Assembly (NCBI RefSeq): GCF_038404985.1
Contig: NZ_JBBKBA010000001.1
Coordinates: forward strand, 2,446,001-2,510,000
Reading direction: 5' to 3'
DNA from: Ferrovibrio sp. MS7
Lineage (GTDB): Bacteria > Pseudomonadota > Alphaproteobacteria > Ferrovibrionales > Ferrovibrionaceae
DNA length: 64,000 nt
How positions within the stretch are numbered: position 1 is the stretch's first letter; the number at the start of each line of letters is the position of its first letter. The notes under the pieces were generated by a model. It was not told the DNA's origin, did no database searches, and saw only the letters and a list, made by a program, of their open reading frames with translations. Positions 6,789-25,946 of this stretch are shown here, in pieces. Position numbers and translations under genes: made by a program.

Positions 6789-6807
6789 GGCATTGCATCC
6801 CTTTTTT

Positions 6808-6878
6808 GTCATTCTCGCGCACGCGAGAATCCCATTTTTTTTGTGATGAAATGGGACTCTGGCTTGCGCCAGGGTGAC
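6808..6878. repeat. Intergenic double-hairpin repeat, subfamily I
   Basis: A 71-bp element bounded by GTCA and TGAC. It holds two hairpins: the perfect palindrome ATTCTCGCGCACGCGAGAAT at 6811–6830 and ACTCTGGC/GCCAGGGT arms at 6856–6875, with CCCAT facing ATGGG between them. The architecture is the same as the elements near 10.05, 20.73 and 24.86 kb, but the arm sequence differs, so I treat it as a second subfamily. Confidence 0.65.
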
Positions 6879-6915
6879 AAGAATGGCGCGGGAGTAACGA
6901 CTTCAAAAACAATGG

Positions 6916-6945
6916 CGTCATGGCCCGCCTGCGCGGGCCATGACG
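6916..6945. terminator. Bidirectional terminator between ppx and rnd
   Basis: Two perfect 13-base arms, CGTCATGGCCCGC and its complement, with a 4-base loop. On the plus strand a T-rich tail ending in six Ts follows; on the minus strand, 6 bases after the rnd stop, the hairpin is followed by a short T run. It therefore probably ends both converging transcripts. The CGTCATG edge also resembles one half of the REP-like elements. Confidence 0.7.
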
Positions 6946-10041: not shown

Positions 10042-10053
10042 TCCCATTAATTG

Positions 10054-10129
10054 CGTCATGCGCGGACTTGATCCGCGCATCTCTTGGTAAATCGAAAACC
10101 AGATGCCCGGGTCGAGCCCGGCCATGACG
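10054..10129. repeat. Intergenic double-hairpin repeat, subfamily II, copy 1
   Basis: A 76-bp element between aspS and marC, bounded by CGTCATG and CATGACG. The left hairpin has arms TGCGCGGA/TCCGCGCA with loop CTTGA; the right hairpin is CCGGG/CCCGG. The two halves are inverted copies of one ATGCCCGG…CCGGGCATCT-type unit. It matches the copies at 20726 and 24858 nearly base for base. Confidence 0.85.
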
Positions 10130-10187
10130 ATGGTGTGGGCTGGAACTGCGCTAGACGGTAGCACCGACAGACAGCAAGGAGGGGCGT

Positions 10188-10820
10188 ATGCGTGATAGCT
10201 TCGAATATATCCGCTACGCCATCACGCTGTTCTCGATCCTGGATCCGTTCGCGGCCATCCCGCTCTTCCTGATGCTGATGGAAGGCCGCTCGGGCGCGGA
10301 GAAGGCCAAGACAGCCCGCACCGCTGCCATCGCCGTGTTCGGCGTACTGGTGGTCTCCGCACTCTCGGGCGACATGATCCTGCGGCTGCTGGGCGCCAGC
10401 CTTGCCGCCTTCCAGGTTGGCGGCGGTATCGTGCTGTTCCTGATGGCGCTCAGCATGGTCAATGCGCAGATGAGCCCGCAGCAGCAGACGCCGGAAGAGG
10501 CGGCCGAGGCCGGCGCGCGCGATGCCGTGGGCGTGGTGCCGATTGCCATGCCGCTGCTGGTCGGCCCCGGTTCGATTTCCGCCACCATCATTACCATGCA
10601 GAGTGGTGACGGCTTCCTGCATCAGGGTGTGGTGATCCTCGCCATTCTGGTTGTGTGCGTTGCGGTATGGATCGTGCTGCGGCTGGCGGTTCCCATCGGC
10701 CAGCGCATGGGCCGCACCGGATTGAATATCCTCAACCGCATTTTCGGCTTGCTGCTGGCCGCCGTTGCAGTGCAGATTTTTGCCAACGGCCTGCGTGGGC
10801 TGTTCCCCGGATTGCACTGA
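10188..10820 (+). CDS. marC: MarC family integral membrane protein
   Basis: A 210-residue membrane protein with six predicted helices. The opening ITLFSILDPFAAIPLFLML, the GDMILRLLG/GGGIVLFLMALSM segment and PIAMPLLVGPGSISATI near residue 120 are hallmarks of the MarC family. The function is not established; an early link to multiple antibiotic resistance was not upheld. An AAGGAGG-type ribosome site lies 8 bases before the ATG. It is separated from aspS by a double-hairpin repeat and has only 41 bases to the following esterase, with which it may be co-transcribed. Confidence 0.88.
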   Translation: MRDSFEYIRYAITLFSILDPFAAIPLFLMLMEGRSGAEKAKTARTAAIAVFGVLVVSALSGDMILRLLGASLAAFQVGGGIVLFLMALSMVNAQMSPQQQTPEEAAEAGARDAVGVVPIAMPLLVGPGSISATIITMQSGDGFLHQGVVILAILVVCVAVWIVLRLAVPIGQRMGRTGLNILNRIFGLLLAAVAVQIFANGLRGLFPGLH

Positions 10821-10861
10821 ATAAAAATCGCTACTGAACGCCAAGCAAAAGGCACCAAGCC

Positions 10862-11797
10862 ATGCTCGATCCTGAAGCCAAGGCCCTGCTCGACGCGGTG
10901 GCCGCCGCCAATCGTCCCGCCTATGAGTCCATCGGCGCCGAGGCGGCGCGCAAGCTGTACAAGGAAACCCGTGGCGCGGTGTCGCCGGAACCGCCGGAAG
11001 TTTCCGAGGTCGGCAATTTCGCCTGTCCGGGGCCGAATGGTCCGATCCCGCTGCGCTATTACCGCCCGATCGACGTCGATAAGAAAGACGTATTGCCGGT
11101 GCTGGTGTTCTACCATGGCGGCGGCTGGGTGATCGGCGATCTCGATACCCATGATGTCGTCTGCCGCACCCTGGCGAATAATTCAGGCTGTGCCGTGGTC
11201 AGCGTCGATTACCGCATGGGGCCGGAATTCAAATTCCCCGCCGCCATCGAGGATGCCTATGCCGCGCTGGTCTGGGTGGTGGAGGAAGCCAAACATCTCC
11301 GCGTCGATGCCGAGCGCCTCGCCGTAGGCGGCGATTCCGCTGGCGGCAATATCGCCGCCGTGGTGGCGTTGCTGGCGCGCGACGCGGGCAAGCCGGCGAT
11401 CAAGTTCCAACTGCTGATCTATCCCGCCACCAACATGGCGATGGAGACGGAGTCGCACAAAAACTTCGCCACCGGCCATCTGCTCACCCATAGCAGCATG
11501 ACCTGGTTCCAGCTCATGTATCTGAACGGCCCGGCCGACTGCGAGGATTGGCGTGCCTCGCCGCTGAAGGCGCCGTCGCTCGCCAACCTGCCGCGCGGCT
11601 ATGTGGTAGTGGCTGGCAACGACCCCTTGCGCGATGAAGGCGTCGCCTATGCCCAGGCTTTGCAGGCAGCCGGTAACGTGGTGCAGTTCCGCGAATTCCC
11701 CGGCACCATCCACGGCTTCATCACCATGGGCAAGGTGCTGCCGCAAGCCAACGAGGCCCTCGCCGAAATGGGCGCGGTGCTGAAGGCGGGATTGTAG
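10862..11797 (+). CDS. Alpha/beta hydrolase, hormone-sensitive-lipase (family IV) esterase
   Basis: A 311-residue cytoplasmic esterase. The HSL-family oxyanion motif HGGGW is near residue 86 (VFYHGGGWVIGDL), the nucleophile elbow GDSAGG near residue 159, the acid in GNDPLRDEG near residue 257, and the catalytic His in GTIHGF near residue 287. Family IV enzymes hydrolyse short-chain acyl esters; the physiological substrate is unknown. There is no signal peptide. It stands 41 bases after marC and is convergent with the pentapeptide-repeat gene, 7 bases away. Confidence 0.88.
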   Translation: MLDPEAKALLDAVAAANRPAYESIGAEAARKLYKETRGAVSPEPPEVSEVGNFACPGPNGPIPLRYYRPIDVDKKDVLPVLVFYHGGGWVIGDLDTHDVVCRTLANNSGCAVVSVDYRMGPEFKFPAAIEDAYAALVWVVEEAKHLRVDAERLAVGGDSAGGNIAAVVALLARDAGKPAIKFQLLIYPATNMAMETESHKNFATGHLLTHSSMTWFQLMYLNGPADCEDWRASPLKAPSLANLPRGYVVVAGNDPLRDEGVAYAQALQAAGNVVQFREFPGTIHGFITMGKVLPQANEALAEMGAVLKAGL

Positions 11798-11804
11798 TTT
11801 TTGT

Positions 11805-12743
11805 TTAGACGCTGCCCGCCGGCATGAAGCCGAAGGCCTGATCCAGCATGGCGCCACGGAAATCGGCGCCTTGGATGTCGGCGGCGGAGAGATTGGCGCC
11901 GCGCAGGTCGGCGCAGATCAGCTTGGCGCCACGCAAGCTGCAGCGCGCCATGTTGGCGCCGACCAGGTTGGCGCCGGAGAGTTCGGCGCCGTCGAGATTG
12001 AGCCCGACCAGATTCCAGTTGGAGAGGTCGGCGCGCTGGCCGGCCCTGCCGTCGCTCTGCACCCAGGAGGCATGGGATTCCAGCGCCATGTAGACGGCCG
12101 CCGGCTTGGCCGCCTTGGGCACCTTGCCGCCGCCGGAAATGATCTGCTCGCCGAGTTCGCTTGGCATGTCGGCCATGGAGAAATCGGCGCCGCGCAGGTC
12201 GGCGCCTTTCAGCGACAGGCCGGTGATGCTGGCATAGGCGAAATTGGCGTCCTGCAGGTTCGCCTTGTCGAAGATGGTGTCGTTCAGCGTTGCCGCCACG
12301 AAGGAGGCGCCGCGCGCCGAGGCGCCGCCGAGCTTGGTCTCCTGCCGGCCATCGGCGACATTCTCCGGCGGCGTGTAGGGCCGGAAATCGGCGCTGTCGA
12401 AACGCGTGTTGTTGAGGATGGCGCGGCTCAAGTCGACGCCACGCATCAGCGCCTGGGCGAAATTGCCTTCGCTGAGATCGGCGGCGGTCATGTCGCTGCC
12501 GTTGAATTCGGCTTCCACGGCATCGACGCCGCGCATGTCGGTGCAGAACAGCCGGCATTGCTGCAGCACCACCCGGCGCAGGTTGCGCCGCGTCAGCTTG
12601 GTGGAGCCGAGATCGGTGCGGGCCAGCTTCAACTGCCGCCCGACCTTGACCGAGGTGCCGATGGAGAGCGTGAACCGGGCGTGGGAATCCAGCCGGTCGC
12701 CGAGATCGGTGGGGCAGGTTGCATAGCTGGGGCCGCTGGTCAT
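11805..12743 (-). CDS. Pentapeptide-repeat protein
   Basis: A 312-residue protein with many A(D/N)LXX-type pentapeptides in two blocks: about residues 65–175 (e.g. ADLSEGNF, ANLQDANF, ADLRGADF) and about 235–310 (e.g. ANLVGAN, ADLRGANLSAAD). Such tandem repeats fold as a right-handed quadrilateral beta helix. The first 60 residues (RFTLSIGTSVKVGRQLKLART) look like a separate small beta domain. Some family members protect DNA gyrase, but most have no known role and this one lacks any diagnostic partner. The two blocks are separated by a non-repeat linker around residues 180–230. There is no signal peptide. Confidence 0.85.
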   Translation of the reverse strand: MTSGPSYATCPTDLGDRLDSHARFTLSIGTSVKVGRQLKLARTDLGSTKLTRRNLRRVVLQQCRLFCTDMRGVDAVEAEFNGSDMTAADLSEGNFAQALMRGVDLSRAILNNTRFDSADFRPYTPPENVADGRQETKLGGASARGASFVAATLNDTIFDKANLQDANFAYASITGLSLKGADLRGADFSMADMPSELGEQIISGGGKVPKAAKPAAVYMALESHASWVQSDGRAGQRADLSNWNLVGLNLDGAELSGANLVGANMARCSLRGAKLICADLRGANLSAADIQGADFRGAMLDQAFGFMPAGSV

Positions 12744-12783
12744 GCCACCAGTATAGGGGGGCAGGCGTGATTCGGTAAACGCA

Positions 12784-13239
12784 TCAGCGCCGGCTGCCCA
12801 GCACCATCACCCAGAGTGTCTGGCCCTGCAATTCACCCTGGGCGATACCGGCCTCGCGCAATTCCGGCCGCAGCAGATTTTCCCGGTGGCCCGGGCTTTC
12901 CAGCCAGGCGGCCAGGGTCTCGGCGGCATTCGGCGTGCCATGCGCCAGGTTCTCGGCGGCGAAGGCGAAGGGATAGCCGGCGCGGACCAGGCGTTCGCGC
13001 AGGTCGCTGCCATCGCAGCCCTGGTGGCTGAGGCGGCCGCAGCGCGGCAGGTCGGCGGCGAGTTCGGCGGCGGCCAGGCGGAGCTGCGGATTGTCGCGCA
13101 GCACGTCCAGTCCGCTCCGGGCGCGGGTGGCGTTCACCGCCACCAGCAAGGCGCGGGTCTCATCCGCCCAGGCAGCGGGCGCCCAGGCAAGCTGGGTCGC
13201 CAGCAGCATCGCAGCCAGAATCAGGTGCCTCAGGAGCAT
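12784..13239 (-). CDS. Exported CAP/SCP domain protein
   Basis: A 151-residue protein with a signal peptide ([19 protein letters not shown], then AWADE) and one CAP domain. CAP signs are [22 protein letters not shown], the His in [23 protein letters not shown] and [15 protein letters not shown]. Bacterial CAP proteins are exported and of mostly unknown function. The start at 13239 overlaps the last 10 bases of nrdJ, so translation is probably coupled to it; an ATG at 13266 is possible but would spoil the signal peptide. The two Cys flanking the His ([11 protein letters not shown]) may form a disulfide. Confidence 0.8.
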
Positions 13240-16200
13240 CCTGTGGTGCCGCCACAGGAATCGCATTTCAGGCAGGTACCGTTGCGCACCAGGGTGAAGT
13301 TGCCGCATTCCGGGCAGGCATCGCCTTCATAGCCCTTCATCCGCGCTTCGCGGATGCGGCTGGAGCGGCTGCTGCTGCCTGCGCCTTCTTCATGGCTGCC
13401 GGCCAGCACATTCACCGCCGCCGTGATGTTGAGGCCATCGGTGCCGGTTGCCTGAAGCTGCATGGTGGCGGCGCCCGTGCCAGCCGCGGCATTGTTCAGC
13501 ACATAGAGGTTGGAGCGGACATAGCCGTTCGAGGCCATGGCGGCCACGGGTGCCATCTCCGTGGTGTGGGCTTCCTTGGCGCCCAGTGCATCGGGGCGCA
13601 GGTCTTCCGGCTGCACATGGGCGAGGTCGGTGCGGCCCAAGTAGCTCACCGCCAGTTCGCGGAACACATAGTCGAGGATCGAGGTCGCCATCTTGATGAC
13701 GTCGTTGCCTTCCACCATGCCCGAAGGCTCGAAGCGGGTGAAGGTGAAGGCATCGACGAATTCCTCCAGCGGCACGCCGTATTGCAGGCCGATGGAGATG
13801 GCGATGGCGAAATTATTCATCAGGCTGCGGAAGGCGGCGCCTTCCTTGTGCATGTCGATGAAGATTTCGCCGAGCTTGCCTTCGTCATATTCACCGGTGC
13901 GCAGATACACCTTGTGGCCGCCGACCACGGCCTTCTGGGTGTAGCCCTTGCGGCGCAGCGGCAGGCGCTGGCGGCCGGCGATGTATTTCTCGACAATGCG
14001 CTCGGCAACGATCTGGGCGCGGGCGGCAGCCGGCGCTTCGATCACGCGGTCGAGGGTGTCTTCAACCGCCTCGGCATCGTCGTCGAGCAACTGCGATTGC
14101 AGCGGCTGGCTCAGCTTGGAACCGTCGCGGTAGAGCGCGATGGCCTTGCAGCCAAGCTTCCAGGCCGAGAGATAGGCCTCCGTGCATTCCTCGACGCTGG
14201 CCGAATTCGGCATGTTGATGGTCTTGGAGATGGCGCCGGTGATGAAGGGCTGCGCCGAGGCCATCATGCGGATATGGCTGGCCGAGGACAGGAAGCGGGT
14301 GCCGTCCTTGCCGCAGGGGTTGGCGCAGTCGAACACCGGCAGATGCTCGTCCTTGAGATAGGGCGCCCCTTCCAGGGTCATGGCGCCGCAGCAATGCAGG
14401 TTGGCGGCGGCGATCTCTTCGGCCGTGAAGCCGATGGCGGTGAGCAGGTCGAAATCCGGCGCGTTGAGCCGCTGTTCCGGGATGCCGAGTTCGTTGGTGC
14501 AGAAAACCGTGCCGAGGGTAAAGCGGTTGAGCACGAACTTGATGTCGAAGGCGGTGCGCAGGCCGGCTTCCACCTTGGCGATGGCTTCTGCCGTGAAGCC
14601 CTTGGCCTTCAGCGTGGTGTGGTTGACGCCCGGCGCGCCGCGCAGCGTGCCATGGCCCACGGCGTAATCGATGATGGCGCGGATTTCGCCTTCGGTATAG
14701 CCGAGCGTGCGGAGCGCAAGCGGCACGGTGCGGTTGATGATCTTGAAATAGCCGCCGCCGGCCAGCTTCTTGAACTTCACCAGGGCGAAATCCGGTTCGA
14801 TGCCGGTGGTGTCGCAATCCATCACCAGACCGATGGTGCCGGTGGGAGCGATGACGCTGACCTGGGCGTTGCGGTAGCCATGCGCCTCGCCGAGCGACAA
14901 GGCGCGGTCCCAGGCTTCCTGGGCCGCCGTGCGCAGCGCGGCATCGGCGCAATGGCCGTGATCCAGCGGCAGCGGTGCGATATGCAGGCCCTCATAGCCG
15001 GCAAGCTGGCCTTGCGCGGCGCGGCGATGGTTGCGCACCACCCGCAGCATCTGGTCGGCATTGCGGCTGTAGCCGGGGAAGGCACCGAGTTCGGCCGCCA
15101 TCTCGGCGGAGGTGGCATAGGCGGCGCCGGTCATCAAGGCGGTGATGGCACCGCAGAGCGCGCGGCCCTCATCGGAATCATAGGACATGCCGCAGCTCAT
15201 CAGCAGCGCGCCGAGATTGGCATAGCCGAGGCCGAGCGTGCGGAATTCATAGGAGCGGCGGGCGATTTCGCGGCTCGGGAACTGCGCCATCAGCACGCTG
15301 ATTTCCAGCGTCACGGTCCACAGCCGGCAGGCATGCTCGAAGCCCTGCACGTCGAAGCGGCCATCATCGCTGCGGAAGCACATCAGATTCAGCGACGCGA
15401 GATTGCAGGCCGTGTCGTCCAGGAACATGTATTCCGAGCAAGGGTTGGAGGCGTTGATGCGGCCATCCTCAGGGCAGGTATGCCAATCGTTGATCGTGGT
15501 GTCGTATTGCAGGCCGGGGTCGGCGGAGGCCCAGGCAGCTTGGCCGATCTTGTCCCACAGCTTGCGCGCCGGCAGGGTCTTGGCAGCCTTGCCATCGGTG
15601 CGCCGCGTCAGCGTCCAGTCGGCATCGCGCTCCACGGCGAGCAGGAAGTCATCCGGCACGCGCACGGAATTGTTCGAGTTCTGGCCGGAAACGGTGAGAT
15701 AGGCTTCGCCATCCCAGTCGGTGTCATAGGCGCGGAAATCGAGCTGGTCATAGCCCTGGCGGGCCATCTGCAGCACGCGCTGCACATAGTTTTCCGGGAT
15801 CATCGCGGCGCGGGCGGCGCGGATTTCCTTGCGTAAAGCGGCATTCTGCTTCGGGTCGCAGCCACCGGCCTCATTGCAGGCGGCAAGCACGCGGCCGAGA
15901 TGCTGGCGCGACAGCTTGGAGCCGGCGACCAGAGCCGCCACCTTCTGCTCCTCGATCACCTTCCAGTCGATGAAGGCTTCGATATCAGGATGGTCGATGT
16001 CGCAGATCACCATCTTGGCGGCGCGGCGCGTGGTGCCGCCCGATTTGATGGCGCCAGCGGCGCGGTCGCCGATCTTGAGGAAACTCATCAGGCCCGACGA
16101 CTTGCCGCCGCCGGAAAGCTTTTCGTCCTCGCCGCGCAGGCGCGAGAAGTTGGAGCCGGTGCCGGAGCCGTATTTGAACAGCCGCGCCTCACGGGTCCAC

Positions 16201-16850
16201 AGATCCATGATGCCGCCCTCGTTGACGAGGTCGTCCTCCACCGACTGGATGAAGCAGGCATGCGGCTGCGGATGCTCATAGGCCGAGTCCGACTGCACCA
16301 GCTTGCCGGTGCGGTAATCGACATAATGATGCCCCTGGGCCGGGCCATCGATGCCATAGGCCCAATGCAGGCCGGTGTTGAACCATTGCGGCGAGTTCGG
16401 CGCACCGACCTGGGCGGCCAGCATGTAGCGCATCTCGTCGAAATAGGCGCGGGCATCCTCTTCCGAATCGAAATAGCCGCCCTTCCAGCCCCAATAGGCC
16501 CAGGTGCCGGCCAGGCGGTCGAAAACCTGCCGCGCGCTGGTCTCCTGGGTATAGCGCTCGGCCTCGGGCAGCTTCTCCAGCGCCGCCTCATCGGCTTCCT
16601 GGCGCCACAGCCATTGCGGCACGTCCGATTCTGGCACCGGCCGGCGGGCGGCGGGAATCCCGGCGCGGCGGAAATACTTCTGCGCCAGCACGTCGGCAGC
16701 CACCTGCGACCAGGGGGCCGGCACTTCCAGCTTATCCAGGCGGAACACCACGGAACCATCCGGATTGCGGATTTCGCTGGCCGTGAAACGGAACTCGATG
16801 CCGTCGTAAGCTTCACCCGCCGCATTGGTGTAGTGCCGTTGAATACGCAT
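13230..16850 (-). CDS. nrdJ: Vitamin B12-dependent (class II) ribonucleoside-diphosphate reductase
   Basis: A 1206-residue adenosylcobalamin-dependent reductase that makes deoxyribonucleotides. The catalytic N-x-C-x-E motif is in [23 protein letters not shown] near the middle, followed by the ten-stranded barrel segments ([26 protein letters not shown]). The C-terminus ends in a four-cysteine zinc ribbon (CPECGNF…CLKCDSCGG), typical of long alphaproteobacterial NrdJ. No NrdA/B or NrdD appears in the window, so this may be the main reductase. The ATG at 16850 starts [20 protein letters not shown]; upstream extension lacks similarity to the family. A promoter and a leader hairpin precede it. 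Confidence 0.95.
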
Positions 16851-16901
16851 TGCCGCCTGCCCCTCGTGCCCTGGAAATCGCCGCTGAATCAAAGACTTGA
16901 G

Positions 16902-16928
16902 GCCGCCAGAGCTACCAAATCTGGTGGC
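16902..16928 (-). other. Hairpin in the nrdJ leader
   Basis: In the minus-strand leader the arms GCCACCAGA and TCTGGCGGC pair at eight of nine positions around a 9-base loop. The hairpin lies about 50 bases before the nrdJ start and about 15 after the predicted transcription start. It is too small to be a cobalamin riboswitch. A folding or regulatory role is only a possibility. Confidence 0.4.
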
Positions 16929-16950
16929 TCGGCGACCTCGGATGGGCTAA

Positions 16951-16979
16951 ATCTAGGGTAAGGCCGGCGCGCGGGTCAA
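16951..16979 (-). promoter_or_regulatory. Sigma-70-type promoter of nrdJ
   Basis: Read on the minus strand: TTGACC, a 17-base spacer and CTAGAT. Transcription would begin near 16944, giving a leader of about 94 bases. No NrdR-type box pair is recognisable around it. Confidence 0.5.
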
Positions 16980-17036
16980 TTCTTCAAAGGGCGGTGTGCC
17001 TTATTAAAACCACAAGCATTGTGCTAGACTCGGGCC

Positions 17037-17585
17037 ATGCGCCGCATCCATTCCCTGCTGCTGATTCTTCTCCTGGCGGTTACCACCGCTGTTCCCCTGG
17101 GCGTTGCCGCCCAGGACCGGGTAACCCGGCAGGCGGCGGACAAGCTGATGGAGACTCTGAGCCTGGAAAAGCGGGTCGACTCCATCGTGCAGCTCTATTT
17201 GCAGTTCATGCCGCAATCGACTCCGGAGGAGCAGGCCCGCGCCCGGCTGCTGCGCGAACGCGCGCCCGGCGCCGGCCAGCGTTTCCGGGGCGCCGTCTCC
17301 AATGCTGCCGCCGCCCATTACAATCGTAATGAGCTGGCGGCGCTGGATCAGTTCTTCGCCAGCGACGAGGGCCAGCGCCTGATCGCCACCGCCGTGGGTC
17401 GGGCGCTGATGTCGATGGGCCGTGGCGGCACCCTGAAGCAGGGCGACCTGCTGAAGGCAGAGGATTTCGCCGGCCGGCCGGGGCTCGAAAAGGTTGTGTC
17501 CAAATACCCCGCTTTCGAGACCGCCGCGCGCAATGAACTGGGCCGCGAATTCGCCATGGAAATCGGCCTTCTGGTGATGAAATAG
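17037..17585 (+). CDS. Exported DUF2059-like protein
   Basis: A 182-residue protein with a clear signal peptide (MRRIHSLLLILLLAVTTAV, cleavage probably after GVAA). The mature part is helical: a first bundle (QAADKLMETLSLEKRVDSIVQLY) and a second, YNRNELAALDQFFASDEGQRLIATAVGRAL, which is the pattern of the DUF2059 family (helices that follow a 'F(Y/F)xSxxGq' turn). The function is unknown and location is periplasmic. It is divergent from nrdJ and followed after 89 bases by the NDUFA12 gene. A CACAAGCATTGTG palindrome at 17011–17023 lies just in front of the start. Confidence 0.65.
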   Translation: MRRIHSLLLILLLAVTTAVPLGVAAQDRVTRQAADKLMETLSLEKRVDSIVQLYLQFMPQSTPEEQARARLLRERAPGAGQRFRGAVSNAAAAHYNRNELAALDQFFASDEGQRLIATAVGRALMSMGRGGTLKQGDLLKAEDFAGRPGLEKVVSKYPAFETAARNELGREFAMEIGLLVMK

Positions 17586-17674
17586 GACGGCCGAATAAGG
17601 CTTTACGCAATGTTCGGGCAGTGCCATAGTCCGCCCATAATTCAGCGCACCAGCAGCGCGGAGACAGTGAGACC

Positions 17675-18013
17675 ATGAGCCTGATCGGCACGAAGCTCTA
17701 TACTTGGTGGAAAGGCGAGGCGGTCGGCAGCGACAGCTTCGGCAACAAGTATTTCCGCGAACGGAGCGGCGGGCGCCGCCGCTGGGTGATCTTCAACGGC
17801 CGCCCGGAAGCATCCAAAGTGCCGCCGGAATGGCATGCCTGGCTGCACCACACCGTTGATGACGCGCCGGTCGCCGGCGTGAAGAAGCATGTGTGGGAAA
17901 AGGAGCATCTGCCGAATCTGACCGGCACGCCCTACGCCTATCATCCGGCGGGGCAGGGCGGCGGCACGCGGCCCAAGGCCACAGGCGACTACGAAGCCTG
18001 GAAGCCGGAGTAG
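17675..18013 (+). CDS. NADH:ubiquinone oxidoreductase accessory subunit NDUFA12
   Basis: A 112-residue homologue of the mitochondrial complex I subunit NDUFA12 (B17.2). The core reads VGSDSFGNKYFRER, then RRWVIFNGRPEASKVPPEWHAWLHH and a late YHPAG segment, all family-typical. In alphaproteobacteria this protein is a supernumerary complex I subunit on the matrix/cytoplasmic arm and helps assembly or stability. It starts the NDUFA12–mlaD–DUF2155 run, with 10 and 6 bases between genes, a cluster seen throughout the class. Complex I core genes are not in the window. Confidence 0.93.
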   Translation: MSLIGTKLYTWWKGEAVGSDSFGNKYFRERSGGRRRWVIFNGRPEASKVPPEWHAWLHHTVDDAPVAGVKKHVWEKEHLPNLTGTPYAYHPAGQGGGTRPKATGDYEAWKPE

Positions 18014-18023
18014 GCGACGGCCC

Positions 18024-18503
18024 ATGCAAGGCAATCTGGTCGAGACCCTGATCGGCGCCGTGGTTCTTGCGGTGGCTGCGTTCTTCCTGGCATTCGCCTA
18101 TTCCACCGCCGGCGTTGGCGGCAACGTGTCTGGCTATGAACTGAAGGCGCGCTTCAACCGCGCCGATGGCCTGGTAACGGGCGGCGCCGTGCGGCTTTCC
18201 GGCATCAAGGTCGGCACCATCACCGGCCAGACGCTCGACCCCAAGACCTATGATGCCGTTGTCACCTTCACCGTCGATGGTCGCTACAAGCTGCCGGAAG
18301 ACTCGGCGGCGAAGATCGCCTCCGAAAGCCTGCTCGGCGGCAATTACCTGTCGATCGAGCCGGGCGGCAGCGATGTGATGCTGAAGCCGGGTGAGGCGAT
18401 CAAGTTCACCCAAGGCTCGGTCAGCCTGCTCGATCTGATCGGCCAGGCGATTTTCAGCGCCACCACCGGCTCGGGTAACGGCGACAAGGCCAAGGCGCAG
18501 TAA
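18024..18503 (+). CDS. mlaD: Lipid-asymmetry ABC system substrate-binding protein MlaD (MCE domain)
   Basis: A 159-residue protein with an N-terminal membrane anchor (LIGAVVLAVAAFFLAFAYS) and a single MCE domain (YELKARFNRADGLVTGGAVRLSGIKVG, followed by AKIASESLLGGNYLSIEPGG). MlaD forms a hexamer on the periplasmic side of the MlaFEB transporter and passes phospholipids between membranes. The rest of the Mla system (mlaE, mlaF, mlaC) is not here, so mlaD is genetically separated from its partners. It lies 10 bases after NDUFA12 and 6 before DUF2155. Confidence 0.9.
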   Translation: MQGNLVETLIGAVVLAVAAFFLAFAYSTAGVGGNVSGYELKARFNRADGLVTGGAVRLSGIKVGTITGQTLDPKTYDAVVTFTVDGRYKLPEDSAAKIASESLLGGNYLSIEPGGSDVMLKPGEAIKFTQGSVSLLDLIGQAIFSATTGSGNGDKAKAQ

Positions 18504-18509
18504 AGCAGC

Positions 18510-18941
18510 ATGTTTCGGCAAGCGTCCTGCCTGCCCCGCGCAACTTTCGTTGCAGCACTGCTGCTATGCGCCGCCACGGGGGCCATCGCGCAGCCGGCCC
18601 CGGCGAGTGACGCCTTGCCGAGCAATCCGATGCCGCTGGCGATCCTGCAGGGCCTGGATAAGATCACCGCGCGCATCTACACGCTGGAAGTCGCCATCGG
18701 CCAGACCGTTGGTTTCGGCACGCTGAAGGTGACGCCGCGCGTCTGCCGCAAGCGGCCGCCGGAATATCCACCGGAAAGCGCTGCCTATCTCGATATCGTA
18801 GAAGAACGCCCCGGCGAGGCGGCAGTGCAGCGCTTCTCCGGCTGGATGTTCGCCTCCAGCCCGGCGCTCAATCCGCTGGAACACCCGGTCTACGATGTCT
18901 GGGTGATCGACTGCCGCGCGCCGCGTCCCGCCGCCCGCTAG
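18510..18941 (+). CDS. DUF2155 family exported protein
   Basis: A 143-residue protein with signal peptide (up to about residue 27, GAIAQPA) and one DUF2155 domain: ITARIYTLEVAIGQTVGFGTLKVTPRVCRKRPPEYPPESAAYLDI, then FSGWMFASSPALNPLEHPVYDVWVIDC. Two conserved cysteines (VCRKR and VIDC) could form a disulfide. The family is periplasmic, nearly confined to alphaproteobacteria and lacks an experimental function. Its steady position after mlaD suggests an envelope role, which is inference only. The stop is 12 bases from the convergent membrane hydrolase gene. Confidence 0.87.
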   Translation: MFRQASCLPRATFVAALLLCAATGAIAQPAPASDALPSNPMPLAILQGLDKITARIYTLEVAIGQTVGFGTLKVTPRVCRKRPPEYPPESAAYLDIVEERPGEAAVQRFSGWMFASSPALNPLEHPVYDVWVIDCRAPRPAAR

Positions 18942-18953
18942 AATCTCAGTGCG

Positions 18954-20027
18954 CTAACGCCCCAACACACCATCGCGTATTTCTGCCAGGCCGGCACGGG
19001 TGAAACCGGGCCGTTCCGACAGCCGCTCCGGCTCGCCGAGCAGGCGGCCTGCGGCATCGACACGGAAGCGCAGGCCCCAGAAGCCGAGGATACTGTCGCC
19101 GGGCATGCCATAGCGGTAGTCGCGCGCCTCGACGAGAGTCGGCGTGCCGGGCTTCACCGTCCAGTGCAGATGATCGCCTGAGAACCAGCGGAACACCTTT
19201 GCTTCATAGCTGGCCTGTGCCGCATCAAGCGCTGGGCTGGAGGGCAGCCGGGCGAAACGCTGCCAGGCAATCGGCTTCTCAGTGAAGGGTGAGGCAAAGC
19301 CGATCAGGATTTCGTCGGGCAGATCGACAACGATGCGGCGCCACCAGGGCTGAAAAATCACTGGATAGGCGCTGATGCGGACGCCGGTGGTGTTCGATGA
19401 TGTTCCCTGCAATTCCTCGCGCGCCCGCTGCTCCAGATGCAGGCCTATGCCCCAGGCCATCGTGGTGTAGAGAAAGATATAGACCAGCGCCAACTGGGCC
19501 GCGCGCTGTGCCGCAGCGGCGAAGCGCTCGCTTACCAGGGCGAATAGAAACACCAGCAGCAGCGGCAGGGAATAGACTGGATCGATGATCGGCATCGCGT
19601 TGATGGCGAAGCGCACGCTGCTGAACGGGGCCAGCAACTGCGTACCATAGGCGGTGAACAGGTCGATCAGCGGATGGGTGACGGCCGCCAGTGCGCCGAG
19701 CCACATCCAGTTGCGGCGGCGCTCTGGGCTGTCATCGGGTCCGAGCGCCGGGCGGTTCGGCGCCCTGCTGCGCAGCCGCTCGGCTTTCCAAAGCATCCAG
19801 CCGACCACCGCGCCATAAACCAGCGTGGCGGGAAAGGAATGGCTGATGGCGCGGTGGTCCTGCCAGGTGTCGACCACGCTCTGATGGCCGAACAGGCCGG
19901 TTAAGACATCCAGGTCGGGCAGGGTGCCGATCAGGCCGCCTGCCGCCACCGCGCGCCGGCCCAGGCTTTTGCGGAAACCGGCAGCGCCCAGCACGCCGCC
20001 GAACAGAAGCTGCGTCACGCTATCCAT
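18954..20027 (-). CDS. Membrane-bound metal-dependent hydrolase, YdjM/DUF457-like
   Basis: A 357-residue protein starting [17 protein letters not shown]. It carries the conserved polar patches of the family inside a membrane frame: [12 protein letters not shown] near residue 40, [13 protein letters not shown] near residue 60, and [25 protein letters not shown] near residue 115, where the His/Asp residues likely bind metal. Four or five hydrophobic helices follow; the last 150 residues form a soluble beta-rich tail. The family is related to phospholipase C-like hydrolases but its substrate is unknown. The start overlaps the aat stop by 8 bases, so it is translationally coupled to aat. Confidence 0.75.
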
Positions 20028-20706
20028 GCACTATCCTCTCCGATAATGCCGCCAGCACTTCGGCGGGCGCTGCATCCAGTGGCATGCGGCCGAAATCGGC
20101 GGTCACATCCAAGGCTTCGCCCAGGCGTTCGAGATACTCGGCGCGGCGGATTTCCTCGGCGCCGAAGCGGGCGAGATGCGAGGTGATGAACTGTGTATCC
20201 AGCAGCACGAAGCCGCCCAGGCGCAGGCGGGCCACCAGATGCACCAGAGCCACCTTGGAAGCATCAGTGGCGCGGCTGAACATGCTTTCGCCGAAGAAGG
20301 CGCCGTTGAGCCGCACGCCATAGAGGCCGCCGACCAGCCGGTCCTCGCCATCGTAGCATTCGACGCTGTGGGCGAAGCCCTTGCGGTGCAGCTCGGTATA
20401 GGCGTTGCGTATCACCGTATTGATCCAGGTGTTGCGGCGCTGGCTTAAGAGATCGCGCGAGGGTTCGGCGCAGGCCGCGATCACGGCCGCGAAATCGCGG
20501 TCGACATGGACGCGGAAGCAATTGCTGCGCACCGTCTTGGCCAGCGAACGTGGCAGGTGGAAGCGGTCCAGCGGGATGACGCCGCGATATTCCGGATAGA
20601 CCCAGAAATAGCCCGGATCGTCGGCGCTGTCGGCCATCGGAAAATAGCCGCTGGCATAGGCATGCAGCAGCAGGTCGGTGGTCAGCGGCTGCGGGTTATG
20701 CGGCAT
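20020..20706 (-). CDS. aat: Leucyl/phenylalanyl-tRNA–protein transferase
   Basis: A 228-residue enzyme that adds Leu or Phe from charged tRNA to proteins with an N-terminal Arg or Lys, marking them for ClpAP (N-degron pathway). Family segments are [60 protein letters not shown] and [27 protein letters not shown]. The first Met at 20706 gives the expected length. It lies downstream of accC, from which a double-hairpin repeat separates it by 114 bases, so it may be transcribed partly on its own. Confidence 0.95.
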
Positions 20707-20725
20707 GCGCTCTTCTTCGCACCGT

Positions 20726-20799
20726 CGTCATGCGCGGGCTTGACCCGCGCATCTCTTGCCAGGCTGGATGAGATGCCCGGATCAAGTCCGGGCATGACG
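20726..20799. repeat. Intergenic double-hairpin repeat, subfamily II, copy 2
   Basis: A 74-bp element between accC and aat with CGTCATG/CATGACG ends. Left hairpin arms are TGCGCGGG/CCCGCGCA around CTTGA; right hairpin arms are GCCCGGA/TCCGGGC around TCAAG. The right half is identical to the right half of the copy at 24858. It sits inside what is otherwise one same-strand gene run. Confidence 0.88.
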
Positions 20800-20820
20800 A
20801 TCCTTCCTGAAACCCCATTC

Positions 20821-22164
20821 TCACCCCTGGCGCGCGATGAATTCCTCGAGCCAGTGGATGTCATAGGCACCGTTGACGAAATCCGGATCGCGGATCAGGG
20901 CCAGATGCAGCGGGATGGTGGTTTCCATGCCGCCGATGACATATTCCTCCAGCGCCCGGCGCAGCCGCATCAGGCATTCATTGCGGCTGGTGCCATGCAC
21001 GATCAGCTTGCCGATCAGCGAGTCATAATGCGGCGGCACCTGATAGCCGGTGTAGAGCGCGCTATCGACACGCACGCCAAGACCGCCCGGCACATGGTAG
21101 TCGCTGACGCGGCCCGGCGAGGGCGCGAAGGTGCGTGGGTTCTCGGCATTGATGCGGCATTCGATGGCGTGGCCGCTGAACTTGATGTCGTCCTGGGTGT
21201 AGCCGAGCGGCGCGCCGGCGGCGACGCGGATCTGCTCGCGCACCAGGTCGAGGCCGGTGATCATCTCGGTCACCGGATGCTCCACCTGCAGGCGGGTATT
21301 CATCTCGATGAAGTAGAACTGACCATTCTCGTAGAGGAATTCGATGGTGCCGGCGCCGCGATAGCCGAGCTTGGCGATGGCATTGGATGCGATGGCACCA
21401 ATCTGCTTGCGCTGTTCCTCGTTCAAAGCCGGCGAGCGGGCTTCTTCCAGCACCTTCTGATGCCGGCGCTGCAGCGAACAGTCGCGTTCGCCGAGATGCA
21501 CGGCATTGCCATGCATATCGCCGAAAATCTGCATCTCGATATGGCGCGGGCGGGTGAGGTACTTTTCGACATAGACGGCGTCGTTGCCGAAAGCGGCGCG
21601 CGCCTCGGCCTTGGCCTGGGCCAGCGCGGGGCCGAATTCCTCCGGGCTGCGCACCACCTTCATGCCGCGACCGCCGCCGCCGGCCGTGGCCTTGATCAGC
21701 ACCGGATAGCCCATGTCGTCGGCGAGCTTGCGGCCTTCCGCCTCATCGGCGATGGCGCCATCCGAACCCGGCACGCAGGGAATGCCCAGCGAGCGCGCGG
21801 CTTCCTTGGCGGCGATCTTATCGCCCATCAGGCGGATATGTTCCGGCGTCGGGCCGATGAAAGTGATGTCATGGGCTTCGACGATCTCGGCGAACTTGGC
21901 GTTCTCGGAAAGGAAGCCATAGCCGGGATGGATCGCATCGGCGCCGGTGATTTCGGCCGCCGAGATGATCGCCGGGATATTCAGGTAGCTCTGGTTGGAT
22001 GGCGGCGGGCCGATGCAGACGGATTCATCGGCGATGCGCACATGCATGGCATCGGCATCCGCCGTGGAATGCACCGCCACGGTATGAATGCCCATTTCCT
22101 TGCAGGCGCGGTGAATGCGCAACGCGATCTCGCCGCGATTGGCGATCAGCACCTTATCGAACAT
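20821..22164 (-). CDS. accC: Acetyl-CoA carboxylase biotin carboxylase subunit
   Basis: A 447-residue ATP-grasp enzyme that carboxylates the biotin on AccB, the first half-reaction of fatty acid synthesis. It starts [20 protein letters not shown]. It shows the glycine-rich ATP loop ([12 protein letters not shown] near residue 165), [20 protein letters not shown], and [18 protein letters not shown] near residue 290. The size fits stand-alone AccC, in contrast to the longer MCC alpha subunit at the end of the window, which carries its own biotin domain. accB precedes it by 21 bases. Confidence 0.96.
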
Positions 22165-22185
22165 CGGCGCGGTCCCGCGGGCCGG

Positions 22186-22659
22186 TTATTCGATCACCAG
22201 CAGGGGCTGGCCAAATTCGACCGGCTGCTGGTTCTCGATCAGGATGCGGGTGACGCGGCCGCCCTTCGGTGCGGTGATCGGGTTCATCGTCTTCATGGCT
22301 TCGACGATCAGCAGGGTCTGGCCGGCGGAAACATTGCTGCCGACCGAGACGAACGGCGCCGCGCCGGGTTCGGACGCGGTGTAGACGGTGCCGACCATCG
22401 GCGACTTCACGGCACCGGGATGGCTGGCGGCATCGTCGCCACCGGCGGCGGCTGGAGCGGCGGCGGCAATGGCGGCCGGGGCGGCGGCATAGACCGGGGC
22501 GCTGACGGCAGCCACGGTCTTGGCAACACGGACTTTCAGCGAGCCTTCATTCCACTCGATTTCGCTGAGGCCGGTCTCATTCAGCAATTCCGCGAGGTCG
22601 CGGATCATCTGCTGGTCGATGCGGCTCTCTTTCTTGTCCTTGGCAGGCGTCGACGCCAT
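22186..22659 (-). CDS. accB: Biotin carboxyl carrier protein of acetyl-CoA carboxylase
   Basis: A 157-residue carrier. The N-terminal helical part (IDQQMIRDLAELLNETGLSEIEW) is followed by an Ala/Pro-rich flexible linker (about residues 50–75) and the biotinyl domain. The biotinylated lysine is in VEAMKTMN near residue 118, and the protruding thumb region is present in the SEPGAAPFVSVG segment. The ATG at 22659 gives the usual MASTPAKDKKE start and has an AGGA-type ribosome site. Its place between aroQ and accC is the standard alphaproteobacterial arrangement. Confidence 0.96.
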   Translation of the reverse strand: MASTPAKDKKESRIDQQMIRDLAELLNETGLSEIEWNEGSLKVRVAKTVAAVSAPVYAAAPAAIAAAAPAAAGGDDAASHPGAVKSPMVGTVYTASEPGAAPFVSVGSNVSAGQTLLIVEAMKTMNPITAPKGGRVTRILIENQQPVEFGQPLLVIE

Positions 22660-22684
22660 CCTGGAAATCCTTTTTCTGCTGCTG

Positions 22685-23164
22685 TCAGGCGATGATATCG
22701 GCAAGGGCTTCCAGCGCCAGGGCATAGCCCTTGGGGCCGAGGCCGAAAATGCCGCCGCGCGCCGCCGGCGACACATAGGAATGGTGCCGGAAGGATTCGC
22801 GCTTGAAGATGTTGGAGATATGCACCTCTATCACCGGCTTGTCGAAGGCGTTCAGCGCATCGAGCATGGCCACCGAGGTATGGGTGAAGGCACCGGCATT
22901 AATCACGATGGCGGCGGCCTTGGTGCGGGCCTCCTGGATGCTGTCGATCAGCACGCCTTCGTGGTTGGTCTGGCGGAAGTCGATCTCCAGGCCCAGCCGA
23001 TCAGCGGTGAAGCGGCACAGGGTTTCAACATCGTCGAGCGTGTCGCGGCCATAGATTTCCGGCTGGCGGGTGCCGAGCATGTTGAGGTTCGGGCCATTCA
23101 GCACATAGACCAGCGGCTTCGCGGCCTTGCGCCCGCCGCCACCCTGCTTGCCTGCCTGCGCCAT
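22685..23164 (-). CDS. aroQ: 3-Dehydroquinate dehydratase, type II
   Basis: A 159-residue enzyme of the shikimate pathway that dehydrates 3-dehydroquinate. After a short Gly/Lys-rich lead it has [20 protein letters not shown], the type II signature with the catalytic Tyr at the lid; ETNHEG-like [33 protein letters not shown]; and PVIEVHISN with the catalytic His. It leads the aroQ–accB–accC run with 25 bases before accB. The lead of about 15 residues is longer than in most homologues, but no better start is visible. Confidence 0.95.
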
Positions 23165-23410
23165 CCCGGCCGCTCCTACAAAGGTATAACACCGGGCGGC
23201 CTGTCACTTTGGCAGCACCCTGGGGGATTGCCCTACACTATTCCGCCCCGCCGGGGCAACTGCCGGGGCCCTGGATGGGGCCAGACAGGGGCGGTTTCGG
23301 TGGTTTACGGGCTAGATGGGGGTGGGGTGGCGCCAGTACAAGATGAGGGACGAGGCCAGCCCCGCAATGACCCTGGCGCCAACTGGGCGGATTTGCGATA
23401 AACCCCTGTC

Positions 23411-24079
23411 ATGACAGAGAAACCGCCCCTCCAGATCGAAATAATCCCGGTTACCCCGTTCCAGCAGAATTGCAGCCTGGTTTGGTGTACCGCCAGCATG
23501 CGCGGCGCCCTGGTGGATGCCGGCGGCGAGCCGGATCGGCTGCTGGAAGCAGTAAAGCGCCAGGGCGTGACGCTGGAAAAGCTGCTGGTCACCCATGGCC
23601 ACCTGGACCATGCCGGGGCAGTGATGGAACTCTCGGAAAAGCTGAACCTGCCGATCGAGGGGCCGCATCGCGAGGACCAGTTCTGGATCGACGGCATGCC
23701 CAAGGCGGCACAGCAATATGGTTTTCCGCCCAGCCGCAGTTTCACGCCGGGCCGCTGGCTGGAGCAGGGCGATACCGTCACGCTTGGCGACCTCATCCTC
23801 GATGTCTACCACTGCCCCGGCCATACGCCGGGCCATGTGGTGTTTGTGCATGCAGAAAGTCGCGTGGCGTTGGTTGGCGATGTGCTGTTCCGTGGCTCGA
23901 TCGGCCGCACCGATTTCCCGCGCGGCAACCATGAACAGCTCATCAAAGCCATCCGTGAGCGCCTGTTCCCGCTCGGCGACGACATCACCTTCGTGCCCGG
24001 CCATGGCCCGCTTTCCACCTTCGGCGCCGAGCGCCGCAGCAACCCCTTCGTGTCTGATCTCGCCCTGGGATTGGCTTGA
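23411..24079 (+). CDS. Metallo-beta-lactamase-fold hydrolase (glyoxalase II-like, YcbL type)
   Basis: A 222-residue single-domain MBL-fold protein. Metal-binding motifs are THGHLDHAG near residue 61, CPGHTPGH near residue 137, the bridging Asp in LVGDVLFRGSIGRTD near residue 160, and PGHGP near residue 198. GSIGRTDFPRGN is typical of glyoxalase II-like/persulfide dioxygenase-related members such as YcbL. It lacks the C-terminal substrate domain of true GloB. It probably hydrolyses a thioester or related compound. The 246-base gap before it contains nothing I can identify apart from a presumed promoter for aroQ. Confidence 0.85.
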   Translation: MTEKPPLQIEIIPVTPFQQNCSLVWCTASMRGALVDAGGEPDRLLEAVKRQGVTLEKLLVTHGHLDHAGAVMELSEKLNLPIEGPHREDQFWIDGMPKAAQQYGFPPSRSFTPGRWLEQGDTVTLGDLILDVYHCPGHTPGHVVFVHAESRVALVGDVLFRGSIGRTDFPRGNHEQLIKAIRERLFPLGDDITFVPGHGPLSTFGAERRSNPFVSDLALGLA

Positions 24080-24170
24080 GTTCCTGGGGGCTGGCCTAAG
24101 TTCCAGTTGTTAAAGGATTATTTACCCTTTTTTACGTGCCAGGACCGGGGATTCATGGTAAATATTAACC

Positions 24171-24827
24171 ATGGTTCAGTCGGTCACGGGCAGCAATCTG
24201 CTCGCAGTCTTTCCGGCCTCAGCCGCGGCGCGCAATCTGGCCCAACAGAATTTGGTCCTGCCGTCCCCGTTGCCCTCGCCCCAAGAACAGGCGCAGCAGC
24301 GGGCGTCTTCTGTTGTGCGCTTCAACGCACCGACTTTAAGCAATGCCACGCTCGCGACCCTGCGGGATGCCGCTTTGCGCTCGCAGGTATCGCCGGAATT
24401 GAATGGCAGCAACACAGCGGCCGACAGCGACAGTGCCTCGCGCGCGGCGCAGGCTTATAGCTTGGCGGCGAATTCGCTGCGGCCGTTGATCGCGCTTGGC
24501 ACTGCACCGGGGCCGGTGCCGAATCTGCAGGCCTTGGCGCCCGGCGCCGCTGAGCAGGGCGGCGAAGCCGGGAATAGCCGCGCGGCACAGCGTCAGCAGA
24601 GCGAGCGGAGCCAGGAGAATGAGCGCGGCCAGTCGCGGATCAATGGCAGCCAGGAACGCTCGAACCCGCTGCTGGCGCCGGAGCGGCAGAATTTCTCCAA
24701 CCCGGCCCCTGTGGCGGCGCCAGTGGCAGCCGGCGGCAACAGCAACAATGCTGCCGCCAGCAATGTCGTGCCTGGCAGCGCCCGCATCGGTGCCAGCCTC
24801 GGCCTGCGGGTTGATGTCGGGGTTTAG
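24171..24827 (+). CDS. Hypothetical disordered protein
   Basis: A 218-residue protein I do not recognise. There is no signal peptide or membrane segment. It is rich in Ala, Asn, Gln and Ser. The middle (about residues 125–165, e.g. RAAQRQQSERSQENERGQSR) is highly charged and glutamine-rich, and the end is a Pro/Ala/Asn-rich linker closing in GASLGLRVDVGV. Such composition predicts disorder. Codon third positions are GC-rich as in the neighbours, so I take it as a real gene, but this is uncertain. It stands alone between the MBL hydrolase and a double-hairpin repeat. Translation begins at the ATG at 24171; a nearby ATG at 24154 is in another frame. Confidence 0.45.
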   Translation: MVQSVTGSNLLAVFPASAAARNLAQQNLVLPSPLPSPQEQAQQRASSVVRFNAPTLSNATLATLRDAALRSQVSPELNGSNTAADSDSASRAAQAYSLAANSLRPLIALGTAPGPVPNLQALAPGAAEQGGEAGNSRAAQRQQSERSQENERGQSRINGSQERSNPLLAPERQNFSNPAPVAAPVAAGGNSNNAAASNVVPGSARIGASLGLRVDVGV

Positions 24828-24857
24828 GCCAGACGTACTGACCAATATAAAATACGT

Positions 24858-24933
24858 CGTCATGCCCGGGCCCAGACCCGGGCATCTTTCTCCAATTGAC
24901 AATGAGATGCCCGGATCAAGTCCGGGCATGACG
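24858..24933. repeat. Intergenic double-hairpin repeat, subfamily II, copy 3
   Basis: A 76-bp element between two convergent genes. Left hairpin arms are TGCCCGGG/CCCGGGCA; right hairpin arms are GCCCGGA/TCCGGGC around TCAAG. The last 29 bases are the same as those of the copy ending at 20799. It may serve as terminator for both genes. Confidence 0.88.
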
Positions 24934-24940
24934 AGATGAA

Positions 24941-25930
24941 TTAGGACGCCCCGGCGTATTTCACCACGCGCTGATCGATGGCGCCGAAGATCGAGCGCCC
25001 GGCGCGGTCGAACATCTCGATCCGCACGCGGTCGCCGAATTTCAGGAAACCGGTTTTCGGCTTGCCCTCGTTGATCGTCTCGATCATGCGGATTTCGGCC
25101 AGGCAGGAGAAACCCCGGCTGGCATCGCGGTTCGAGACCGTGCCGGAGCCGACGATGCAGCCGGCGCGCAGCCGCCGTGTCCTGGCGGCATGGGCGATCA
25201 ATTGCGCCAGGCTGAACTGCATGTCGTCGCCGGCTTCAGGCGCGCCGAACTTGGTGCCGTTGACATGGCTGACCAGGGCTAAGTGAATCTTCTCATCTTT
25301 CCAGGCATCGCCGAGCTCGTCCGGCGTCACCGCCACGGGCGAGAAGGCAGTGGAGGGTTTGCCGTGGAAAAAGCCGAAGCCCTTGGCCAGTTCGTTCGGG
25401 ATCAGGTTGCGCAAGGATACATCGTTGACCAGCAGCAGCAATCGGATATGGCCGGCGGCGGCCTCGGCCGAGATACCCATCGGCACATCGCCGGTGATCG
25501 CCGCCACTTCGCCTTCCAGGTCGATGCCATAGGCTTCGTCGGCGACCAGAATATCCTCGGTGGGGCCGAGGAAATCATCCGAGCCGCCCTGGTACATCAG
25601 TGGATCATGCAGGAATTCCGGCGGCATCTGCGCGCCACGCGCCTTGCGCACCAGTTCCACGTGGTTGAGGTAGGCCGAGCCATCGCACCATTGGTAGGCG
25701 CGCGGCAACGGCGCTGCAAGCTTGGTGGCGTCGTAGGCGAGGGCGGCGCCAGCCTCGCCGGCATTCAGCGCCGCTGAGGCGGCTTCCAGCTTGGGCGCAG
25801 CCACGGCCCAGGAATCGAGCGCCAGTTGCAGCGTCGGCACCAGGCTATCGACGGGCAGCATTTTCGTCAGGTCGCGGCTGACGACGCAGAGACGGCCATC
25901 GCGGCCATGATTCAGCGAAGCGAGTTTCAT
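24941..25930 (-). CDS. Fumarylacetoacetate hydrolase family protein
   Basis: A 329-residue FAH-fold enzyme, third gene of the hppD–hmgA–FAH run. Metal-site acidic residues are visible in IDLEGEVAAITGDVP near residue 135 and LLLVNDVSLRN near residue 165, and the FAH core continues with GFGFFHGKPSTAFSP and GCIVGSGTVSNRD. The context, 16 bases after homogentisate dioxygenase, makes cleavage of fumarylacetoacetate to fumarate and acetoacetate the likely role, the last step of tyrosine breakdown. The length is between small FAH-domain proteins and the 420-residue eukaryotic-type enzyme, as in several alphaproteobacterial homogentisate operons. Confidence 0.87.
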   Translation of the reverse strand: MKLASLNHGRDGRLCVVSRDLTKMLPVDSLVPTLQLALDSWAVAAPKLEAASAALNAGEAGAALAYDATKLAAPLPRAYQWCDGSAYLNHVELVRKARGAQMPPEFLHDPLMYQGGSDDFLGPTEDILVADEAYGIDLEGEVAAITGDVPMGISAEAAAGHIRLLLLVNDVSLRNLIPNELAKGFGFFHGKPSTAFSPVAVTPDELGDAWKDEKIHLALVSHVNGTKFGAPEAGDDMQFSLAQLIAHAARTRRLRAGCIVGSGTVSNRDASRGFSCLAEIRMIETINEGKPKTGFLKFGDRVRIEMFDRAGRSIFGAIDQRVVKYAGAS

Positions 25931-25946
25931 CTTGGTCTAATCCTGA

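Follow-up and report, generated by a model that had tools for sequence, protein, structure and literature searches.

CGTC-tagged hairpin repeats in Ferrovibrio and a small two-hairpin insert in some of their loops

REP-associated tyrosine transposases (RAYTs) are the enzymes usually credited with spreading repeats of the repetitive extragenic palindrome (REP) type. A superfamily of REPs tagged by CGTC was surveyed in 2013 by Di Nocera, De Gregorio and Rocco (PMC3733652); the parts of that survey available to us describe units that are mainly alphaproteobacterial, have 8-9-bp stems and 4-5-nt loops, form head-to-head dimers and are located at uni- and convergent gene junctions with no associated transposase. 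Their stems have AT at the first two positions, most units, but not all, have CCA as a 3-nt tail, loops of other length or composition are mentioned for a few species, and the agent that mobilizes the units is left open (PMC3733652). Here we analysed three elements in a 64,000-nucleotide stretch of Ferrovibrio sp. MS7 (the window; NCBI RefSeq assembly GCF_038404985.1, contig NZ_JBBKBA010000001.1, positions 2,446,001 to 2,510,000 of the forward strand), which an earlier note had taken, from the sequence, for a recently spread REP-like family mobilized by RAYT-type enzymes. These elements are CGTC-tagged REPs, closest to the family CGTC-3 and joined as head-to-head dimers, and their class is already known, since the window units match the published superfamily. 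In outcome, the repeat is of a known kind, the proposed transposase is unsupported, and the same genome contains one unusual nested form.

As far as the available text of the survey describes CGTC-3, the window units share with it an unpaired CGTC end, a 9-bp stem whose basal pair is A-T and a 5-nt loop, as well as the head-to-head dimer, the alphaproteobacterial host, sites after genes and the lack of an associated transposase (PMC3733652). They are unlike it in that some units of the MS7 genome hold a 50-54-nt insert of two hairpins in the loop, which those parts of the survey do not describe. The same source places dRS3 of Neisseria and RPE-6 and RPE-4 of Rickettsia in the superfamily by tag and hairpin plan; these belong to other families, CGTC-1 and CGTC-4, and are set beside the MS7 units by description only (PMC3733652).

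The 28-nt unit and its copies

The earlier note had read three 74-76-bp elements with shared ends and hairpin pairs, each an inverted pair of one hairpin unit, and this description is borne out. The unit is a 28-nt hairpin with a 9-bp stem, a 5-nt loop and an unpaired CGTC end, and two such units are set head-to-head in each element. The consensus of 28 distinct units, which were chosen with a pairing filter and from which our covariance model was built, is GATnCCCGGGTCAAGCCCGGGnATGACG; positions 2-10 pair with 16-24, and GACG (CGTC on the other strand) is unpaired. Because the pattern used for picking units fixed TGAC, the first A-T pair and the loop TCNRG, several constant features are given by the pattern, namely the final GACG in 28 of 28 units (only its last base was free), A-U at stem pair 1 in 28 of 28 and the 5-nt loop TCNRG, which is also seen in the window arms. 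Stem pair 2 is U-A in 21 units and C-G in 7.

Pairing in the stem of the unit is kept through changes on both sides. Among the 28 units, 98.4% of the cells in the nine stem pairs hold standard pairs, compared with only 21-47% in slid structures; double-sided changes occupy 43 cells against 11.8 in shuffles, and the stem score is 0.490 against 0.144, with none of 500 shuffles as high. A rescan free of the pairing filter gave 92 matches (none with the reversed pattern), 89 of which form 8 or 9 of the 9 pairs and 3 of which, unrelated, form 3-4; in its 31 distinct matches, 48 of 279 cells carry double-sided changes.

The family is abundant in the MS7 genome (G000 in our set; 4,576,383 bases in 5 contigs, 99.89% complete). 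A degenerate 28-mer with up to three mismatches has 140 matches there and its reversed control none, and the covariance model gives at least 149 units, a floor in that 150 of 8045 candidates were scored and at least ten pattern-listed units lie outside the 149. This genome-wide count disposes of the possibility, raised in the earlier note, that only a few copies exist. The nearest named relative, Ferrovibrio sp. isolate Gw_Bodden_bin_214 (G061, locus L009; hereafter bin_214), which is 97.5% identical over 10.8 kb, has 86 unit matches in 2.4 Mb of sequence, and eight other genomes of the genus, some of them assemblies only 83-87% complete, have 23 to 136 each. Across 61 genomes the unit pattern is matched in 24 and the reversed control in none. 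A 30-base match to element 2 occurs in 2 of 72,556 plasmid records, both from Skermanella.

Element 1 (10054..10129, 76 bp) lies 12 bp past the stop of an aspartyl-tRNA synthetase gene, which is followed on the same strand by a MarC gene (open reading frames (ORFs) with Pfam search). Its left arm (10054..10081, minus strand, 47.8 bits with the covariance model) is a 28-nt unit with a GCGCGG-type stem, and its right arm (10102..10129, plus strand, 44.6 bits) has one broken pair that is intact in bin_214. Element 2 (20726..20799, 74 bp) lies 21 bp past the stop of a minus-strand biotin carboxylase gene, with a leucyl/phenylalanyl-tRNA transferase gene on the same strand as its other neighbour; its left arm (20726..20753, minus, 49.2 bits) also has a GCGCGG-type stem, and its right arm (20772..20799, plus, 49.9 bits) has the same sequence as the right arm of element 3. 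Element 3 (24858..24933, 76 bp) occupies a convergent junction between an ORF with no Pfam match and an FAA hydrolase gene, 7 bp from the stop of the latter, and consists of a 29-nt left arm with one additional base in the loop region (24858..24886, minus, 38.1 bits) and a right arm at 24906..24933 (plus, 49.9 bits). All three elements are intergenic by these gene calls, as had been stated. The 29-base identity reported for the right halves of elements 2 and 3 holds and in fact extends to 33 bases (20768-20800 and 24902-24934), and 51 of the 77 columns in an alignment of the three elements are invariant. Each element folds better than 200 of 200 dinucleotide shuffles on both strands (z from -5.35 to -8.65). 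The covariance-model scan of the window returned the six arms at 38.1-49.9 bits and no other match above 20; the next best, 19.9 bits at 6807-6831, belongs to a different family, and two further ones score below 14 bits. An Rfam search of the window over the gathering score found only a tRNA and no match to a REP unit.

Placement after genes and turnover between relatives

Gene context was sampled in the window and 19 further blocks of the MS7 genome, together 340,818 bases with 340 genes and a coding fraction of 0.903. None of the 31 unit clusters in this sample lies inside a gene; 30 are intergenic and the remaining one extends into a gene by 20 bases or fewer, so that copies are not equally common within genes, as the earlier note had allowed they might be. 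Eighteen clusters stand at convergent, 12 at same-direction and 1 at divergent junctions, compared with 58, 204 and 58 among all 320 junctions (Fisher p = 4e-6 for the convergent excess against all junctions and 2e-5 against gaps of at least 80 bases; p = 6e-5 for the shortage of divergent sites). The sampled units almost always lie just after stops, the nearest stop codon being at most 31 bp away in 24 of 30 measured cases. A head-to-head pair is present in 24 of the 31 clusters, a count in which element 3 was scored as single because of the extra base in its left arm. Copy counts and gene context together agree with the proposal of a dispersed, high-copy, intergenic family of paired hairpins like REPs or bacterial interspersed mosaic elements (BIMEs).

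We read the elements as CGTC-3-like REP dimers that serve as two-way 3'-end structures and spread as dimers with exchange of arms and loops, and give this reading a probability of roughly 60%. Transcripts of one or both adjacent genes would include the element at their 3' ends. As an inverted repeat, the dimer would form a strong hairpin in either direction; the symmetric hairpins just past stops suggest a two-way 3'-end barrier, which may protect messages from 3' decay or limit read-through. Units would spread as whole dimers, and copies would trade arms and loops through gene conversion or template-switching, possibly aided by a trans-acting enzyme. In this lineage a second element, of two hairpins and 50-54 nt, occupies some unit loops as well. 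It could instead be that the elements are functional 3'-end structures only, that is, selected terminators or mRNA stabilizers multiplied by ordinary recombination and not mobile DNA. Tight placement after stops and convergent enrichment in the sample favour such a view, as does symmetric folding on both strands, but identical 28-mers at scattered loci point to copying and not to convergence, and the 23 to 140 copies across nine genomes of the genus (some 83-87% complete) point to copying too, making this explanation rather unlikely.

The recent spread claimed in the earlier note stands for two of the three sites. Both elements 1 and 2 are shared by bin_214, and neither site has a unit in the eight other genomes of the genus; a loose scan of site 2 allowing seven mismatches gave one match each in two of these, G003 and G007, within adjacent coding sequence. 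The junction of element 3 has been occupied more than once, since in a comparison of four genomes G001 and G005 carry dimers with other stems there; G006 and G007 carry none. At this site (24828-24940), bin_214 has 5.1 kb of other sequence without a unit (up to five mismatches), whose ORFs we take for an HlyD-like and ABC-transporter set, and in G007 the same flanks are about 5.3 kb apart.

Ten alignments of paired blocks from MS7 and bin_214 revealed several junctions at which only one of the strains has a given dimer. In its place the other strain has a hairpin resembling a terminator, a lone palindrome, a tandem duplication or a different dimer, either of the same or of another family. Differences in presence of this kind would be expected if the 74-bp dimer were a non-autonomous element resembling a miniature inverted-repeat transposable element (MITE), with its ends cut by a DDE-type transposase encoded elsewhere. 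Its terminal inverted repeats, two 28-nt arms in inverse order with the constant outer ends CGTC..GACG, are also arranged as in a MITE. No target-site duplication was seen in the ten alignments, however, the flanks differ around changed sites and the survey, in its available parts, found no transposase association of CGTC units (PMC3733652), and we consider a MITE-like element unlikely. An apparent inversion of a dimer (MS7 L103:11808-11881 and bin_214 L123:10630-10703) was not counted, as the spacers and flanks are different as well. At 6916-6945 of the window, where bin_214 has a different CGTC unit, lies a single palindrome, CGTCATGGCCCG..CGGGCCATGACG.

Several observations weigh against the reading of CGTC-3-like dimers that work at 3' ends and spread as dimers. 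The 3-nt tail of the window units is mainly CTC, with CTT and CTG as further forms, whereas the published tail, in the text of the survey available, is mostly CCA (PMC3733652). In the stem test, two of five measures are weaker, double-sided pairs being reached by 6 of 500 shuffles and further pair types by 239 of 500. The blocks sampled for gene context were selected for holding units or for matching bin_214, their genes were called with a codon-usage script of our own, and unit-bearing junctions are counted among the 320. None of the ten aligned junctions shows a target-site duplication at a cleanly empty site, and the flanking bases usually differ where presence differs, a pattern that a replaced intergenic stretch would explain as readily as transposition would. 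The transcription and function proposed for the elements are read from the sequence, and terminator-like sites (hairpin plus T run) number 12 in 9000-26000 against 11.9 in shuffles, one of them overlapping element 1 (10105-10117, minus). Intrinsic terminators were rejected as an identity for the elements on this lack of excess and the single overlap.

Transposases and the spread of the units

Under RAYT mobilization, a Y1 tyrosine transposase in the MS7 genome would copy hairpin pairs, as for REPs and their hairpin-forming doublets (REPINs) elsewhere. A search of this genome, which is 99.89% complete, found no match to Y1_Tnp (PF01797; E 0.001), whereas it was positive in 5 of 14 control genomes, including E. 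coli and Caulobacter. Fourteen of the 61 genomes have a Y1_Tnp match, but these include only 2 (G003 and G053) of the 12 genomes with at least 20 units, as against 12 of the other 49. Nine of the 11 unit-rich relatives have no match, and G001, G002 and G012 resemble MS7 in having about 100 or more units without one. The short paired hairpins, high copy number and intergenic sites do resemble GTAG REPs and REPINs; those have the tag GTAG and a RAYT gene, whereas the tag here is CGTC. We therefore reject the mobilization by RAYTs put forward in the earlier note as highly improbable.

Two further kinds of element were considered. No transposon flanked by units (REPtron type) was seen by eye in the lists of unit positions, which covered 102 of the 140 pattern places and the 149 model units. 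Transposases of the IS110 type target REPs elsewhere, according to the part of the source available (PMC1525189); IS110 (PF01548) has no match in the MS7 genome and matches in 5 of 21 genomes, one of them of this genus. The elements themselves are ordinary CGTC REPs and bear on the question, posed by the 2013 survey, of what moves CGTC units.

A two-hairpin insert in unit loops

The insert carried by some unit loops has the sequence CTNTAAGC...GCANAG followed by GCCCGAAGGGC, and is laid out as a double hairpin with a foot CTGT/ACAG, a variable stem and then GCCC-GAA-GGGC. Its length is 50-54 nt in all 41 MS7 copies with the left end found (one set at 54 by eye) and in all 18 copies of bin_214. 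In 28 sequences picked for variety from 52 distinct inserts, a choice that raises the count, double-sided changes fill 52 cells against 10.9 in shuffles, with 0 of 500 shuffles as high, and they occur in 8 of 8 pairs of the variable stem. Across 14 pairs in 51 distinct inserts from the two genomes (left end present), pairing holds in 97.2% of the 714 cells, and 64 cells are double-sided.

A 24-base core pattern of the insert has 43 matches in MS7 (reversed control 0), one each in G003 and G007 (no mismatches) and one in G019 (3 mismatches); the 17 other genomes of this set of 21 have none, and six of eight genomes of the genus are without a match. In bin_214 the pattern has 18 matches. In a sample of 385 genomes of the class, in which G003 and G007 were not drawn, 15 genomes besides MS7 had 16 matches (those listed with 2-3 mismatches), which look like chance because the reversed control gave 8. 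Among 41 genomes, a covariance model of the insert found copies in three only, 42 in MS7, 2 in G003 and 1 in G007; the second match in G003 (contig 114, 58.6 bits) is a sequence of other make-up that may be there by chance. The core has no exact match in viral contigs, the whole insert has none in plasmids or phages, and Rfam gives no match on the insert in eight loci at E up to 1, sub-threshold BjrC68 matches adjoining one copy and not lying on it. Our searches of open-access papers turned up no description of the nested insert, the string GGCCCGAAGGGC occurring in two papers that by their titles treat other subjects, and there is none in the available parts of PMC5082802 and PMC6006769.

Most copies of the insert are in REP loops. 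By eye, 37 of the 43 MS7 copies lie in such loops, 27 in CGTC units and 10 in units of a second palindrome family, which begin with AAATGGGA and end with TGACA; 4 are outside REPs (L140, the second copy of L142, L150 and L200) and 2, truncated or degenerate, are unclear. A flank test covered 42 of the 43 MS7 copies, one having no readable left end, and the 18 of bin_214. The flanks of 35 of the 42 MS7 copies pair over at least 5 bases with a TGAC-type tag after, and those of 28 over at least 6, compared with 1069 and 631 of 20,000 random controls at the looser and stricter cut; the test is coarse, since in some loci, namely L156, L190 and the truncated L198, the stem it reports is not next to the insert, and the copies are mutually related, so that its p value overstates independence. 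Sites outside REPs include gene ends (L140, L150 and L186 of bin_214) and an RHS-core gene interrupted by one insert with an exact 24-base core in both G003 (contig 133, L133) and G007 (contig 22, L134); the family search covered the G007 copy only, where the open frames differ on the two sides of the insert.

On this evidence we tentatively propose a non-coding mobile hairpin element of 50-54 nt that rose from one or a few to about 43 copies by lodging in the loops of at least two REP families, one selfish hairpin using another as its landing site, and that may also land outside REPs, as in the RHS-core gene of the relatives G003 and G007. Comparable, in placing DNA within REP units, are the insertion sequences known to target them, although those in the available part of the source are full insertion sequences with a transposase, whereas 50-54 nt is too short for a gene (PMC1525189).

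Comparison with bin_214 bears on how the insert arrives. Where an orthologous stretch is at hand, 9 of 11 MS7 copies have the insert in bin_214 too (32 copies are without such a stretch) and 10 of 15 bin_214 copies have it in MS7 (3 without). Two of the five differences on the bin_214 side are switches of the loop within the same dimer and spacer, plain in MS7 and net 48 nt longer in bin_214 (L096 and L115; L105 and L125). In the other three, MS7 has a dimer of another family (L114), a rearranged stretch (L178) or another hairpin after the same gene (L186). The two MS7 copies lacking a counterpart are at L106, where the stretch differs, and L154, a degenerate copy. We take the loaded loop as derived, since no outgroup was seen with the insert in a unit loop. 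At L125 the loop and the right arm changed together, and both genomes contain a loaded unit whose arms are nearly those of the L115 site; copying from another loaded unit therefore accounts for the two switches no less well than a fresh insertion would. Whether insertion or conversion is at work decides between a mobile element and a loop variant spread by conversion, and the differing loop content of the same dimers in two close relatives makes conversion between copies testable. If the insert is indeed mobile and seeks out hairpin loops, nature would here offer a case of one repeat parasitizing another.

Some further repeats were noted. The second palindrome family forms a dimer in the window at 6807-6879 (AAATGGGA...TGACA), with units at 6807-6837 and 6849-6879. 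After a gene at L150 (1200-1800) stands a tandemly repeated multi-hairpin element that ends in sub-threshold BjrC68-like hairpins and holds one insert copy; bin_214 has a shorter version of it after the same gene (L186). Elsewhere in the window, seven copies of a 56-nt stretch at 11852-12552, spaced mostly by multiples of 15 bases, are perhaps part of a pentapeptide-repeat gene.

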